Positions 19,140-45,338 of a stretch of DNA of 64,000 nt are shown piece after piece (position 1 is the first letter of the stretch; the number at the start of each line of letters is the position of its first letter). A model generated the notes under the pieces. That model saw only the letters and a program-made list of their open reading frames with translations, searched no databases and was not told the origin of the DNA. A program made the translations under genes and the position numbers. The stretch covers positions 1-64,000 of the forward strand of contig JAUIAB010000014.1 of NCBI GenBank assembly GCA_030425505.1, written 5' to 3'. Origin of the DNA: Bacteroidia bacterium. Its GTDB lineage: Bacteria > Bacteroidota > Bacteroidia > Cytophagales > Flammeovirgaceae.

Positions 19140-19231
19140 GCATCCGAGGCTTGGAGGCGCAGTACGAGACCGAAGTGGGTTTTTGCAGGGAGGCAGGCTC
19201 GAACCGCCAGATGGGCTTTGTGGAAGGATGC
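19140..19231 (+). repeat. Structured repeat R2, copy 1
   Basis: A 92-bp element between the TonB receptor and porX. Its ends pair (GCATCC with GGATGC). Internal blocks are GAGGCTTGGAGGCGCAG, GAGACCGAAGTGGGTTTT and GGGCTTTGTG. Copies at 32146 and 45197 keep the pairing while changing the bases (see findings). It could be a small RNA or a folded MITE-like DNA. Confidence 0.75.
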
Positions 19232-19343
19232 CAAGAAGTTTAGAAAAAACACATGAGCAGTTTCTTGATAGATTACTTTAAGCATCTGATTATCAGCAGA
19301 AATAATACTATTTTTTTGAAATTAATTAAGGACTTTATAAATT

Positions 19344-20888
19344 ATGGCAAATCATTCGATATTGTGGGCAGATGACGAGATTGAGCTTCTCAAGCCTCAC
19401 ATTTTATTTTTGGAAGGGAAAGGGTATCAGGTTACTTCTGTCAATAGTGGGTCTGATGCGGTGGATAAGTGTAAGGAAGATCATTTTGATGTGGTTTTCC
19501 TGGATGAAAATATGCCCGGAATTACTGGCTTACAAGCACTGGAGGAAATCAAGGGTATCCGACCAGATGTGCCTGTGGTGATGATCACCAAAAGTGAGGA
19601 GGAGCATATCATGGAAGAGGCAATTGGGGCTAAAATTGAAGATTACCTGATCAAGCCTATTAACCCTAATCAGATTTTGCTTTCGGTAAAGAAGATCTTG
19701 GATAGAAAAAGGCTTGTAACTGAGAAAACGAACACGAGCTATCAGCAAGATTTTCAGTCTATTACGATGTCTATGTATGATGCTGATCACGAAGGGTGGG
19801 CAGATATTTTTAAGAAGCTGGTACATTGGGATATTGCCATTGAGGAGACGGAAAATAAGAGTATGAAGGAGGTACTTCAGATGCAGAAAACAGAGGCTAA
19901 TGCAAACTTTGCCAAGTTTGTGGAGAAGAATTATGTGGACTGGCTAAACGATGAGGATAACTCGCCTGTTCTTTCACATCAGGTGTTTAAGAAGTGGGTG
20001 GCTCCGAAGGTTTTGGATTCGGATTCTCTCTTTCTGATTGTTGTTGATAATTTGCGCCTTGACCAATGGAAGGTTATTCAGCCTTTGCTTTCCAGCTATT
20101 TTTCTATCGATGAGTCTACGTATTATTCTATTTTACCTACGGCTACTATGTATGCTAGGAATGCTCTTTTCTCAGGACTTTTGCCTTCTGAAATGCAAAA
20201 GAAGTTTCCTCAATACTGGGTGGATGAGGATAAGGAAGGCTCGAAGAATAGCTTTGAAAAGGAGTTTTTGGAAGCTAACCTCAAAAGGTTGGGTATGGAT
20301 ATGAGGGTTTCGTATCATAAGATTTTGAATAGCTCACAAGGGAAGGATGTTTTTGAGCAAGCGAATAATCTGCTTTCCAATAAGCTAAATACTTTGGTTT
20401 ACAATTTTGTAGATATGCTATCGCATGCTCGTACGGACACTCAAATGGTGAAGGAACTTGCTGCAGATGAAACGGCTTACCGGTCTATTACGAAGTCGTG
20501 GTTTGAGAATTCTTCTCTTTTTGAGCTTTTGCGTTGGCTGGCAGATAAGAAGATCCCTGTTGTGCTAACTACGGATCATGGTACGGTATATGCCAGAAGA
20601 CCGTATAAGATTGTTGGGGATAGGTCTACAAATACTAATTTGAGGTATAAGTTTGGTAAAAGTTTGAGCTATGATGGCAAAAATGCTTTTACTGCTAAAA
20701 AACCTGAGGATTTTTATTTGCCGAAGGTGAATGTGTCTACTTCGTATGTTTTTGCTACGGAAGATTATTTCTTTGCTTATCCAAACAATTATAATCACTA
20801 TGTTAAGTATTATACAGACACTTTTCAGCATGGTGGAGTTTCTTTGGAAGAGATGATTATTCCTTTTGCTTTTTTGTCACCGAAGTAG
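19344..20888 (+). CDS. porX: PorX, T9SS response regulator with PglZ domain
   Basis: A 514-residue two-part regulator. Receiver domain: acidic pocket D10-D11, phospho-acceptor D54 in VVFLDENMPG, conserved Thr in VVMITKSEEE and Lys in YLIKPINP. After a helical linker comes a PglZ domain of the alkaline-phosphatase superfamily with VVDNLRLDQW, ATMYARNALFSG, VDMLSHART and LTTDHGTVYARRPYKIVGDR. PorX works with the sensor PorY and sigma factor SigP to control type IX secretion in Porphyromonas; its PglZ part is a zinc-dependent nucleotide phosphodiesterase there. No porY is in the window. The match in length and motifs is excellent. A weak or AT-rich leader with repeat R2 lies upstream. Confidence 0.92.
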   Translation: MANHSILWADDEIELLKPHILFLEGKGYQVTSVNSGSDAVDKCKEDHFDVVFLDENMPGITGLQALEEIKGIRPDVPVVMITKSEEEHIMEEAIGAKIEDYLIKPINPNQILLSVKKILDRKRLVTEKTNTSYQQDFQSITMSMYDADHEGWADIFKKLVHWDIAIEETENKSMKEVLQMQKTEANANFAKFVEKNYVDWLNDEDNSPVLSHQVFKKWVAPKVLDSDSLFLIVVDNLRLDQWKVIQPLLSSYFSIDESTYYSILPTATMYARNALFSGLLPSEMQKKFPQYWVDEDKEGSKNSFEKEFLEANLKRLGMDMRVSYHKILNSSQGKDVFEQANNLLSNKLNTLVYNFVDMLSHARTDTQMVKELAADETAYRSITKSWFENSSLFELLRWLADKKIPVVLTTDHGTVYARRPYKIVGDRSTNTNLRYKFGKSLSYDGKNAFTAKKPEDFYLPKVNVSTSYVFATEDYFFAYPNNYNHYVKYYTDTFQHGGVSLEEMIIPFAFLSPK

Positions 20889-20916
20889 AAGTTATTCTAA
20901 ATTAATTTAAAGTCTC

Positions 20917-20967
20917 GACATTGCGGATTTTCTCCGCAATGTCTTAGATCCTGGTTTTCACCAGGAT
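20917..20967 (+). repeat. Double hairpin after porX, possible terminator
   Basis: Two perfect hairpins in a row: GACATTGCGGA/TCCGCAATGTC (11-bp stem, 5-base loop) and ATCCTGGT/ACCAGGAT (8-bp stem). GACAGTCTTTTTT follows, so it can stop transcription of porX. The second stem and its GATGACAG tail look like a REP-type family; a relative ends the lipoprotein gene near 22274. Confidence 0.65.
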
Positions 20968-21073
20968 GACAGTCTTTTTTAAAGTTGAATTGGTATTAGT
21001 AGAGTATTTTCTACCAGCTTCGCTTTTATTTTAGATCTTTGCTTGTATTATATGTTTGTATATTATGCTAAGC

Positions 21074-21577
21074 ATGCCTTTTAATCTTTTACAGTGGGTT
21101 GAAGAAAATAGGAGCTTATTAAAGCCTCCTGTTGGAAACCAGCAATTGTTTGTTGATAATGAAGATTTTATTGTGATGGTAGTGGGAGGACCTAATTGTA
21201 GAAAGGATTTTCATTTTAATGAAGGAGAAGAGCTTTTTTATCAGCTGGAAGGAGATGTTGTTTTGAAGGTTATGGAAGGTGGAAAAGTTAAAAGTATTCC
21301 TATTAAAGAAGGTGACCTTTTTTTATTACCTCCCAGAGTGCCTCACTCCCCGCAAAGACCGAAAGACTCTGTTGGCTTGGTGATTGAAAGGTATAGAAAA
21401 GATGATGAAAGAGATGGCTTTATGTGGTTTTGTGAAAGCTGTAACTCTAAGCTTTATGAGGAGTTCTTTGTTTTAGAAGATATTGTAGCCCAGCTACCGA
21501 AGGTTATGGATCGTTTTTATTCTTCTGAAGAAAAAAGGACATGTAAAAGTTGCGGTTCTATAATGAAGAAACCCTGA
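21074..21577 (+). CDS. nbaC: 3-hydroxyanthranilate 3,4-dioxygenase
   Basis: A cupin dioxygenase of 167 residues from the chosen ATG at 21074 (MPFNLLQWVEENRSLLKPPVG), which matches the family N-terminus; an ATG three codons upstream is possible. It opens the ring of 3-hydroxyanthranilate, leading to quinolinate and NAD in the kynurenine route from tryptophan. Metal ligands appear in DFHFNEGEELFYQLEG and in PPRVPHSPQRP; the C-terminal rubredoxin-like iron site of bacterial members is present as CESC and CKSC. Other kynurenine genes are not in the window. Confidence 0.88.
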   Translation: MPFNLLQWVEENRSLLKPPVGNQQLFVDNEDFIVMVVGGPNCRKDFHFNEGEELFYQLEGDVVLKVMEGGKVKSIPIKEGDLFLLPPRVPHSPQRPKDSVGLVIERYRKDDERDGFMWFCESCNSKLYEEFFVLEDIVAQLPKVMDRFYSSEEKRTCKSCGSIMKKP

Positions 21578-21614
21578 TTTTTTTTTGTTTTAGATGCCAG
21601 TTTTAAGTCAAAAA

Positions 21615-21640
21615 GAACGCATTAAAAATGCACTCTATAA
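21615..21640. repeat. Short hairpin repeat R4, copy 1
   Basis: Reads GAACGCATTAAAAATGCACT followed by CTATAA. The core GCATT/AATGC is a stem around three A residues. A second copy at 30514 reads GCGT/ACGC in the same place, so the pairing is kept although the bases differ. Confidence 0.5.
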
Positions 21641-21678
21641 AAATACAGATATAAAAACATGTTATTTATATAATCTAC

Positions 21679-22215
21679 ATGAATAATTTCTTTAGATTTT
21701 TCGCTTTTTTTTCTTTGTTGATTGTTGCTGGATGTTTGCCAGATAAGCTTAATCGTTTTGATCTTAATTTTTCTTACTATGGGAAGGTGAGTTTAGACTC
21801 AGGTAGTATTCCAGGAAGTGTTTATTCTATTTTATCTGATTCTCAGTTCTATGATTTGGATTCCACTTTGCAAAAACATCAGCTGTCAATAAATCAGCTT
21901 CAAAGCGTTGATATTATTAGTGCTTCGCTGAACTCTTCTACATCTGGTGAAGGAGCTGGCTTTGCTGTGATAGATAGTCTAAACCTTTATTTCACTTATA
22001 ATGGTAATAAGGCTCGTTTTGCTTTTGCTGGCTCTATAGATATCAATGCGAGAAGCAGTATTTCTCTGATTCGAGACTTGAATAGTGATCTTAGCTCTGT
22101 TTTTGGAAGTGATTCTACTTTTTTGGAGTTAGAGGTTTATCTAAGAGATACGATAAGGAATAATTTCTCTTTAGAAATGAATGCTTTGCTTCATGTAAGT
22201 GGAAGCCTAGATTAA
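21679..22215 (+). CDS. Hypothetical lipoprotein
   Basis: A 178-residue protein with a lipoprotein signal (LLIVAGC, lipid-attached Cys at residue 19). The mature part is Ser-, Asp- and Leu-rich and beta-like (LNSSTSGEGAGFAVIDSLNLYFTY) and has no recognisable enzyme motif. It is probably anchored to the outer or inner membrane. I do not recognise a family. It follows the dioxygenase by about 100 bp on the same strand. Confidence 0.65.
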   Translation: MNNFFRFFAFFSLLIVAGCLPDKLNRFDLNFSYYGKVSLDSGSIPGSVYSILSDSQFYDLDSTLQKHQLSINQLQSVDIISASLNSSTSGEGAGFAVIDSLNLYFTYNGNKARFAFAGSIDINARSSISLIRDLNSDLSSVFGSDSTFLELEVYLRDTIRNNFSLEMNALLHVSGSLD

Positions 22216-32145: not shown

Positions 32146-32237
32146 GCACCCTAGGCTTGGAGGCGCAGGGCGAGACCGAAATGGGTTTTGTGGGCTGTTC
32201 AGGCTCGCCCCGCCGGACGGGCTTTGTGTAAGGGTGC
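32146..32237 (+). repeat. Structured repeat R2, copy 2
   Basis: A 92-bp element between the thioesterase and isochorismate synthase genes, in antisense direction to both. Ends GCACCCT/AGGGTGC; inner stems GGGCGAG/CTCGCCC, ACC/GGT around GAAATG, and CCCG/CGGG around CCGGA. It is the most regular copy. Confidence 0.75.
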
Positions 32238-32270
32238 CCTTTTTTATTGTATTGCATTTACTTTTTTAGA

Positions 32271-44115: not shown

Positions 44116-44156
44116 AATCACAGATTTATTTGATTAAAGGATTTTACGGATTTTCT
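44116..44156. repeat. Direct repeat, left of the GxxExxY gene
   Basis: AATCACAGATTTATTTGATT through GGATTTTCT; 41 bp. Its partner at 44545-44586 shares the first 12 and last 9 bases and much between. The right-hand end covers the stop codon of the gene it flanks. Confidence 0.6.
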
Positions 44157-44544
44157 ATAGTACTAGTCTTTTAAAGGTGAGCGATTTACTGCCAAAATTG
44201 ATAAGCAAACCCACTTCTAATTTGTATGCTTTAAGATAATTAAGTGTCTGAGCGAGATGCACATCTTCCAACTCTTTGATGGCTTTTAATTCTACTAATA
44301 CTTTACTTTCTACTACAAAATCAGCGCTTCTTGTTCCTATAGGTTCTGGTAAGTTTTTGTAAAAGATATCCTGTTCTATTTCTCGAGCAAATTCTACGTT
44401 TTTCTGAGCCATTTCCCAAGCTAAAGCCCTCTGATATATTACTTCCTGAAAACCGTTACCCAAAAATGAATGTACTTCAAAAGAAGCTCCGATGATTTTT
44501 TCGGTGATGTCTTTATGTTTTAGCTCTTTCATATCCCTTGTCAT
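44155..44544 (-). CDS. GxxExxY family protein
   Basis: About 129 residues from the ATG at 44544 (a GTG at 44550 and an ATG at 44532 are alternatives). ITEKIIGASFEVHSFLGNGFQEVIYQRAL contains the GxGxxExxY-type signature (here GNGFQEVIY), followed by ADFVVESKVLVELKA and QTLNYLKAY, which resemble a PD-(D/E)xK nuclease core. Family members are scattered singletons with unknown function. Both ends lie in a pair of direct repeats, hinting at mobility. Confidence 0.85.
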   Translation of the reverse strand: MTRDMKELKHKDITEKIIGASFEVHSFLGNGFQEVIYQRALAWEMAQKNVEFAREIEQDIFYKNLPEPIGTRSADFVVESKVLVELKAIKELEDVHLAQTLNYLKAYKLEVGLLINFGSKSLTFKRLVL

Positions 44545-44586
44545 AATCACAGATTTTAATGATTACTCTGATTTCATGGATTTTCT
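44545..44586. repeat. Direct repeat, right of the GxxExxY gene
   Basis: AATCACAGATTTTAATGATT through GGATTTTCT; 42 bp, same orientation as the left copy. It covers the region just before the start codon. Confidence 0.6.
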
Positions 44587-45010: not shown

Positions 45011-45196
45011 GTGGTGTTTTTCAAAGAACGCTTTTGCTTAAATGACAAATTAGATATTAAGAACCTTCCTAATACCCACTATGAACGCATACAAAACGTA
45101 TACTTTCCTACGGAAAGCAGACAAATTGACATTGTTATTTCTATCCCTAACCTCATTGTAAATGCAAAACCTGAAAAAGTTACTACCATTGCCTAT
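45011..45196 (+). pseudogene. Possible gene remnant before repeat R2
   Basis: A frame opened by GTG at 45011 gives FKERFCLNDKLDIKNLPNTHY...PTESRQIDIVISIPNLIVNAK and then runs into repeat R2, whose reading frame (ARRRRARSK) is clearly not protein-like. The part before the repeat has normal amino-acid composition, so it may be the 5' stub of a gene cut by the repeat. No family is recognised. Confidence 0.25.
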
Positions 45197-45286
45197 GCAC
45201 CCTTGGCTAGGAGGCGCAGGGCAAGATCGAAATGGATTTTGTGTGTTGGCAAGCTTGACCCGCCGGAAGGGCTTTGTGCGGGGTGC
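45197..45286 (+). repeat. Structured repeat R2, copy 3
   Basis: A 90-bp element with ends GCACCC/GGGTGC. Its inner pairs have changed together: CAAG/CTTG where copies 1 and 2 have CGAG/CTCG, and ATC/GAT where they have ACC/GGT, both around the same loop GAAATG for the latter. Confidence 0.75.
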
Positions 45287-45338
45287 CCATTATAATAAAG
45301 CTGTTATTTTTGCTATGCGTATTTAATGGTAAGCTCAT

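Follow-up and report, generated by a model that had tools for sequence, protein, structure and literature searches.

A dispersed repeat family with a covarying two-helix fold and a one-sided downstream silent-site footprint in two bacterial genera

Short, folded, multi-copy sequences between bacterial genes fall into several described classes. BOX, RUP and SPRITE of Streptococcus pneumoniae are, according to passages of PMC3049150, short, dispersed, intergenic, folded when transcribed, limited to a lineage and presumed to be non-autonomous, and they are enriched between convergent genes. MRSC-65-2, as outlined in part of PMC11109978, is a covarying single long stem that recurs many times within a genome, in varying orientation to its neighbours, and may act as RNA or DNA; over 20,000 representatives occur in diverse phyla. 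REPs, the folded intergenic DNA of REP/RAYT systems, are described in sections of PMC3733652 as multi-copy palindromes of 20–40 bp with a GTAG or CGTC tag. Among structured bacterial RNAs, HEARO, other Rfam families and Flavo-1 of Bacteroidetes (passages of PMC2864571) have been reported, and put of phage HK022, a processive antitermination RNA, is a folded nascent RNA that affects its own polymerase, with the effect seen downstream (portions of PMC9378689).

Here we describe a repeat family that resembles BOX in that its copies, each shorter than 200 bp, are numerous, scattered between genes and alike in secondary structure. Unlike BOX, RUP and SPRITE, it is not enriched between convergent genes, its pairs covary across two genera, and most copies carry a polar silent-site footprint; this footprint, together with loops that are conserved and single copies that are under constraint, sets it apart from small interspersed structured repeats. 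It differs from MRSC-65-2 in its two-helix core, its conserved loops and its restriction to two genera, and from REPs in its length (about 92 nt) and joining loops; its sequences are not short palindromes tagged with GTAG or CGTC.

The window, that is, the whole stretch of DNA analysed, comprises 64,000 nucleotides of a Flammeovirgaceae genome (GCA_030425505.1, contig JAUIAB010000014.1). The preliminary description had placed three copies in it, and an unfiltered covariance-model scan returned exactly these as its three strong matches, the fourth-best reaching only E 2.5. A core motif allowing up to three mismatches occurs three times in the window and 0 times in 100 shuffles. The core is composed of helix P1 (6 bp), a joining loop, helix P2, a second joining loop (GGANGAGC..TTG) and the P1 3' arm. 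The features are as follows.

19140–19231, plus strand: copy 1, core from P1 to P1 (covariance-model match E 2.2e-18, alignment, pair counts)
19140–19145 with 19226–19231, plus strand: copy 1, P1 arms
19156–19170 with 19196–19208, plus strand: copy 1, P2 arms
19232–19238, plus strand: copy 1, 3' tail, atypical, without a T run
19238–21738, plus strand: copy 1, downstream tract, silent-site G-over-C excess of +0.46 on the element strand
32146–32237, plus strand: copy 2, core (covariance-model match E 1.6e-23, alignment, pair counts)
32146–32151 with 32232–32237, plus strand: copy 2, P1 arms
32162–32176 with 32202–32214, plus strand: copy 2, P2 arms
32238–32245, plus strand: copy 2, 3' tail, CC then T-rich, the form common among copies of this genome
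45197–45286, plus strand: copy 3, core (covariance-model match E 1.4e-21, alignment, pair counts)
45197–45202 with 45281–45286, plus strand: copy 3, P1 arms
45213–45227 with 45252–45264, plus strand: copy 3, P2 arms
45287–45294, plus strand: copy 3, 3' tail, CC then A/T

Flanking gene identities bear out the earlier remark that the neighbours are unrelated. Copy 1 is codirectional with both of its neighbours, a TonB-receptor gene and a response-regulator/PglZ gene; copy 2 is, as had been noted, antisense to both of its own, which encode a chorismate-binding enzyme and a thioesterase; copy 3 has a PDDEXK_3 gene on one side and an epimerase gene on the other. The PDDEXK_3-domain protein that adjoins copy 3 is encoded at 44155–44550 of the window. 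An open reading frame at 45011–45295 extends into copy 3; it may begin with what is left of a gene that the element interrupted. None of the three copies in the window has a terminator-like site (a hairpin followed directly by a T run) or the hairpin that precedes the core in many other copies of the genome.

The fold is strongly supported by covariation in an alignment of 68 copies (66 distinct rows) from two genomes, fitted to the covariance model, in which mutual information singles out two helices. P1 joins the ends of the core, its arms being inverted repeats of 6 nt (typical copies end in GCACCC...GGGTGC or GCGCAC...GTGCGC), and P2 pairs columns 17–32 with 61–74 as a long bulged helix with a CGAA apical loop. 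Pairing is kept in 98.2% of 1,099 cells and drops to 24–47% when partners are slid by 1 to 3 columns; both partners are changed in 166 cells, where shuffles give 40. Four stems had been proposed from the three window copies. The end stem (GCATCC/GGATGC in one copy, GCACCC/GGGTGC in the others) holds, with 98.1% of its cells paired, and the inner stem (CGAG/CTCG or CAAG/CTTG) survives as part of the longer bulged helix, with 98.2% paired. The remaining two do not stand out from shuffles: the third, ACC/GGT around GAAATG, is paired in 66.2% of cells against 65.7%, and the fourth, CCCG/CGGG, in 54.5% against 54.5%. The C-to-T change behind the third stem is real, its partner being column 61, where the inner-stem 3' arm begins (CG 52, UA 13, UG 1, unpaired 0). 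All three paired changes first noticed are thereby retained, but they lie in two helices and not three; independent variation of paired positions among additional copies, named beforehand as what would speak against the fold, is seen for stems 3 and 4 and not for stems 1 and 2. Folding the three window copies singly on the plus strand was not decisive (z -0.39, -2.63 and 0.08). Unpaired motifs are common to the two genera, and a further hairpin, visible directly, extends the joining loop before the P1 3' arm in several of the second carrier's copies.

The three copies of the window are a small part of the family, whose size had been understated. In the same genome (2.95 Mb in 41 contigs, 95.7% complete), a covariance model built from 31 copies gave 64 matches of about 97 nt at E ≤ 1, 62 of them at E ≤ 0.01, with 150 of 304 first-look candidates scored. 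One genome of a second genus in the same family holds 19 matches, and none was found in the 16 other family members searched; one genome from another family gave a single marginal match (E 0.052). That search of relatives scored at most 107 candidates per genome and covered genomes outside the element's own genus. Under stricter filters and with 10 candidates per genome, carriers number 2 of 390 genomes across the order, and in a phylum-wide sample of 395 the present genome stands alone. A one-gene PheT tree, moderately supported, does not place the two carriers as sisters. A Mariniflexile stretch raised by a wider contig pattern scan was discarded, giving no model match at E ≤ 10. One of 28 viral stretches reaches E ≤ 10 (E 0.67); among plasmids and phages all matches were short and partial, the best reaching E 0.8 for the 20 of 43 plasmid records listed and E 3 for the single phage record.

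Within the genome, the closest two of 52 copies differ by 5%, and there is therefore no sign of recent amplification. Truncated and decayed copies exist, including five that are 5'-truncated with intact 3' ends. A pattern for the 5' half occurs at 36 places and one for the 3' half at 26; all are known matches, and one 3'-half place is a truncated copy. At locus L118, a 209-codon open frame, ending near 2020, stops exactly at a 5'-truncated copy.

Further parts are attached to many cores. A hairpin of the form ATCATGCY...RGCATGAT, called at 12 or more of 16 letters, stands 1–2 nt 5' of the core in 28 of the 64 copies (background 0.24%) and shows covariation of its own. On the other side, P1 is followed in this genome by CC and a T-rich tail, TTTT occurring within 14 nt of P1 in 33 of 53 copies compared with 122 of 636 background windows. 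Three loci (L108, L112 and L029) have, immediately before the core, a long palindrome of the type CTAACAGGTTT...AAACCTGTTAG, which is possibly another repeat family.

Selection on the fold was assessed in single copies by way of changes private to them, in 52 copies of the genome (L026 and the 11 weakest of the 64 being left out). Such changes amount to 2.9% in stems and 5.8% in loops outside columns 41–60. Of 749 pairs, 8 are doubly changed yet paired, 13 have turned into the G-T type and 13 are broken. The 8 compensatory doubles compare with 0.6 expected if changes were independent and 2.5 at the loop rate, and the 26 one-sided changes with 81 expected at the loop rate. In the same 27 copies (hairpin score of at least 12 and a row in the alignment), 173 of 189 pairs are kept in the 5' hairpin and 449 of 454 in the core: the hairpin is decaying and the core is better preserved.

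Only 2 of 53 copies overlap an open reading frame of at least 100 amino acids. By gene context the copies divide into 17 ++, 16 -+, 13 -- and 5 +-, which matches the available intergenic length (p 0.21); when gaps are counted instead, divergent sites show an excess (p 0.010). The first downstream gene is opposed to the element in 21 of 62 cases. Between loci we found nine pairs of weakly similar open reading frames, with ABC ATPases as the sole family in three loci; for 39 codirectional downstream proteins from the two genomes, only ABC_tran (3) and AAA_21 (2) recur among 25 of 68 families listed, the listed proteins including SecA, IMP dehydrogenase, 60Kd inner membrane protein and ribosomal protein S6. 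No shared promoter emerged from the two upstream motifs searched: with 53 stretches examined at each position, TA-N2-TTTG is present in 3 immediately upstream and in 9 downstream, and TATAAT in 6 immediately upstream, in 1 lying further upstream and in 3 downstream. Copy orientation follows short-range skew at 40 of 53 copies (p 0.0003), and orientation by replication strand was rejected for this genome, the signal being gone at a 20 kb range with the 1.5 kb around each copy excluded (p 0.32). In the second genus, copy strand depends on the half of the chromosome (p 0.004). Copies there also cluster, 10 of 19 falling inside 0.66 Mb, as found in 1 of 20,000 random draws with the size of the interval chosen post hoc.

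A one-sided change in base composition, noticed post hoc during this orientation check, begins at the element. On the strand of the element, GC skew is about zero upstream and +0.12 to +0.14 over 2 kb downstream, with the step at the element itself. Corrected for gene direction (open reading frames of at least 100 amino acids, taken without a gene caller; some of the 20 kb stretches overlap), the G-over-C excess at 0–2.5 kb downstream has a mean of +0.214 in the window's genome and is positive at 58 of 62 copies (p 3e-11; 46 of 47 in a thinned set); in the second genus it is +0.141 and positive at 17 of 19 (p 6e-4). By comparison, the mean is 0.006 over 175 intergenic gaps that served as controls and are followed by a codirectional gene. 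In the first genome the excess is +0.097 at 2.5–5 kb downstream and +0.088 in the upstream 2.5 kb (44 of 61), with no significant excess beyond 5 kb; in the second genus none is significant outside the downstream 2.5 kb, upstream included. A and C are depleted and G and T enriched downstream in the first genome. Third-position skew is +0.336 in first right-hand genes that run along the element and -0.095, on their own coding strand, in those that run against it; left genes show -0.043 when pointing away and +0.140 when pointing along, and 721 other open reading frames +0.087. Opposed first downstream genes show the excess as well (16 of 21, p 0.002, in the first genome). Within the window, copy 1 and copy 3 (+0.31) have a clear excess and copy 2 only +0.02. 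Excess and model score are uncorrelated (Spearman 0.10, p 0.45), although the 9 weakest copies have a lower mean of 0.114. Gene starts are not the explanation because left-side starting genes lack the excess, and neither is replication direction because the excess ends within kilobases. The element may be the cause, or it may have entered such places in a fixed orientation.

Three enzyme families were searched for a mobilizing enzyme (Y1, RVT_1 and PF07282), and none could be identified as such. The window's genome has one Y1 transposase match, with an element copy 221 nt downstream; the second carrier has 17, none near a copy as judged by coordinates and by the stretches around 8 copies, and Y1 genes are also present in 5 of 6 non-carriers searched. 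The suggestion that a REP-associated transposase should be looked for thus yielded one adjacency and none at the second carrier's 17 matches, and the link is weak. The sole Y1 match of the window's genome (L174:2869-3297, G000:C32) is an open reading frame of 142 amino acids with a short palindrome immediately before it and, on its downstream side, a near-direct repeat of 29 nt. RVT_1 has 0 matches in the window's genome, G003 and G006, 1 in G001 (the second carrier) and 2 in G002. A TnpB guide RNA was rejected, PF07282 being absent in all five genomes searched, both carriers included (among 14 controls it was found in 8, in 6 of them over the cut-off). No target-site duplication, a mark of MITEs, was detected, flank words scoring 3.94 against 3.77 for shuffled partners, with 21 of 300 at least as high.

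No named family matched. Rfam 15 gave no match to the window at the gathering threshold and nothing relevant at E ≤ 10 for six loci; the Rfam model of HEARO/IscB omega RNA had no match in either search. Integron attC sites have ends of the form RYYYAAC ... GTTRRRY; those of typical copies differ. No published description of the family was found in a literature search that lay mostly outside subscription papers. Covariation and the Rfam results support the original characterization as a structured RNA or folded mobile DNA of no named family. On the plus strand, paired sites favour G-T over A-C (24 versus 11, p 0.04), but copy-private changes alone give only 13 versus 9; the acting form may be RNA or DNA.

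Our best reading, which we consider quite possible at somewhat less than even confidence, is that of a formerly mobile, lineage-specific repeat family whose members are now polar cis elements, most likely as RNA. Past spread is indicated by the copy number, the patchy occurrence, the lack of a recurrent neighbour family beyond ABC ATPases and the truncated and decayed copies; the unit would have been a non-autonomous mobile element that spread in the distant past. The plus strand of each copy would now be transcribed near the start of a kilobase-long transcript, and the fold would work on that transcript or its polymerase, either in an antitermination-like manner (the element may work like a processive antitermination RNA such as HK022 put) or by R-loop formation. 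The exposed plus strand would accumulate a deamination-like asymmetry, recording transcription, and the fold would be retained by selection. That the element itself imposes a one-sided process on the downstream kilobases at about sixty sites, as RNA or single-stranded DNA and for example by keeping polymerase running or a strand exposed, is a more tentative proposition. Its main rival, to our mind rather unlikely, is a functionless, dead or slow non-autonomous mobile repeat, inert but oriented, that inserted in a fixed orientation into DNA already asymmetric, single-stranded or transcribed. The 64 matches in one of only 2 carriers among 390 genomes, the unrelated neighbours, the truncated copies and the contexts expected from intergenic length, ++ and -- among them, agree with it, and passages of PMC11109978 treat multi-copy motifs of inconsistent orientation as mobile or repeat candidates. 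An inert repeat fits poorly with the copy-private compensatory changes, the depletion of broken pairs and the better preservation of the core than of the hairpin; it is also not helped by the lack of a target-site duplication and of an identified enzyme, nor by the excess of divergent sites per gap, since the parasitic BOX, RUP and SPRITE prefer convergent ones in the same portion of PMC3049150.

A DNA-level site, at which nicking (HUH-type or other) leads to recurrent displacement of the downstream plus strand and the fold is recognized as single-stranded DNA, is improbable: the downstream excess of G and T on the plus strand fits exposure of that strand, and the sole Y1 gene of the genome has a copy close by, but the second carrier's Y1 matches are all away from copies, non-carriers have such genes too, and the Y1 gene of the window's genome has a palindrome upstream. 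About sixty paralogous, independent small RNAs acting in trans would account for the constraint on the fold, the unpaired motifs common to two genera and the U-rich 3' end in the window's genome; a shared promoter and a canonical terminator at the three window copies are missing, however, and the kilobase footprint would be left unexplained, which makes them distinctly improbable. Least credible, and very improbable, is SINE-like retrotransposition or a plain terminator. The 5'-truncated copies with intact 3' ends and the T-rich tail could be read in this way, but against the former stand the absence of RVT_1 matches from the window's genome and the half-element patterns that yield only known matches, and against the latter the absence of a terminator-like site at the three window copies.

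The family adds to the folded interspersed repeats one that is absent from Rfam, and it contrasts with the picture of inert parasites in that, in two genera, a strand-specific silent-site footprint begins at most of its copies. Whether transcription or strand exposure is what such repeats act on can thereby be tested directly, and elements of this kind might explain local strand asymmetries that are independent of replication. If the reading as polar cis elements is true, a mobile element would have turned into a genome-wide polar cis element that shapes the silent-site evolution of core genes.
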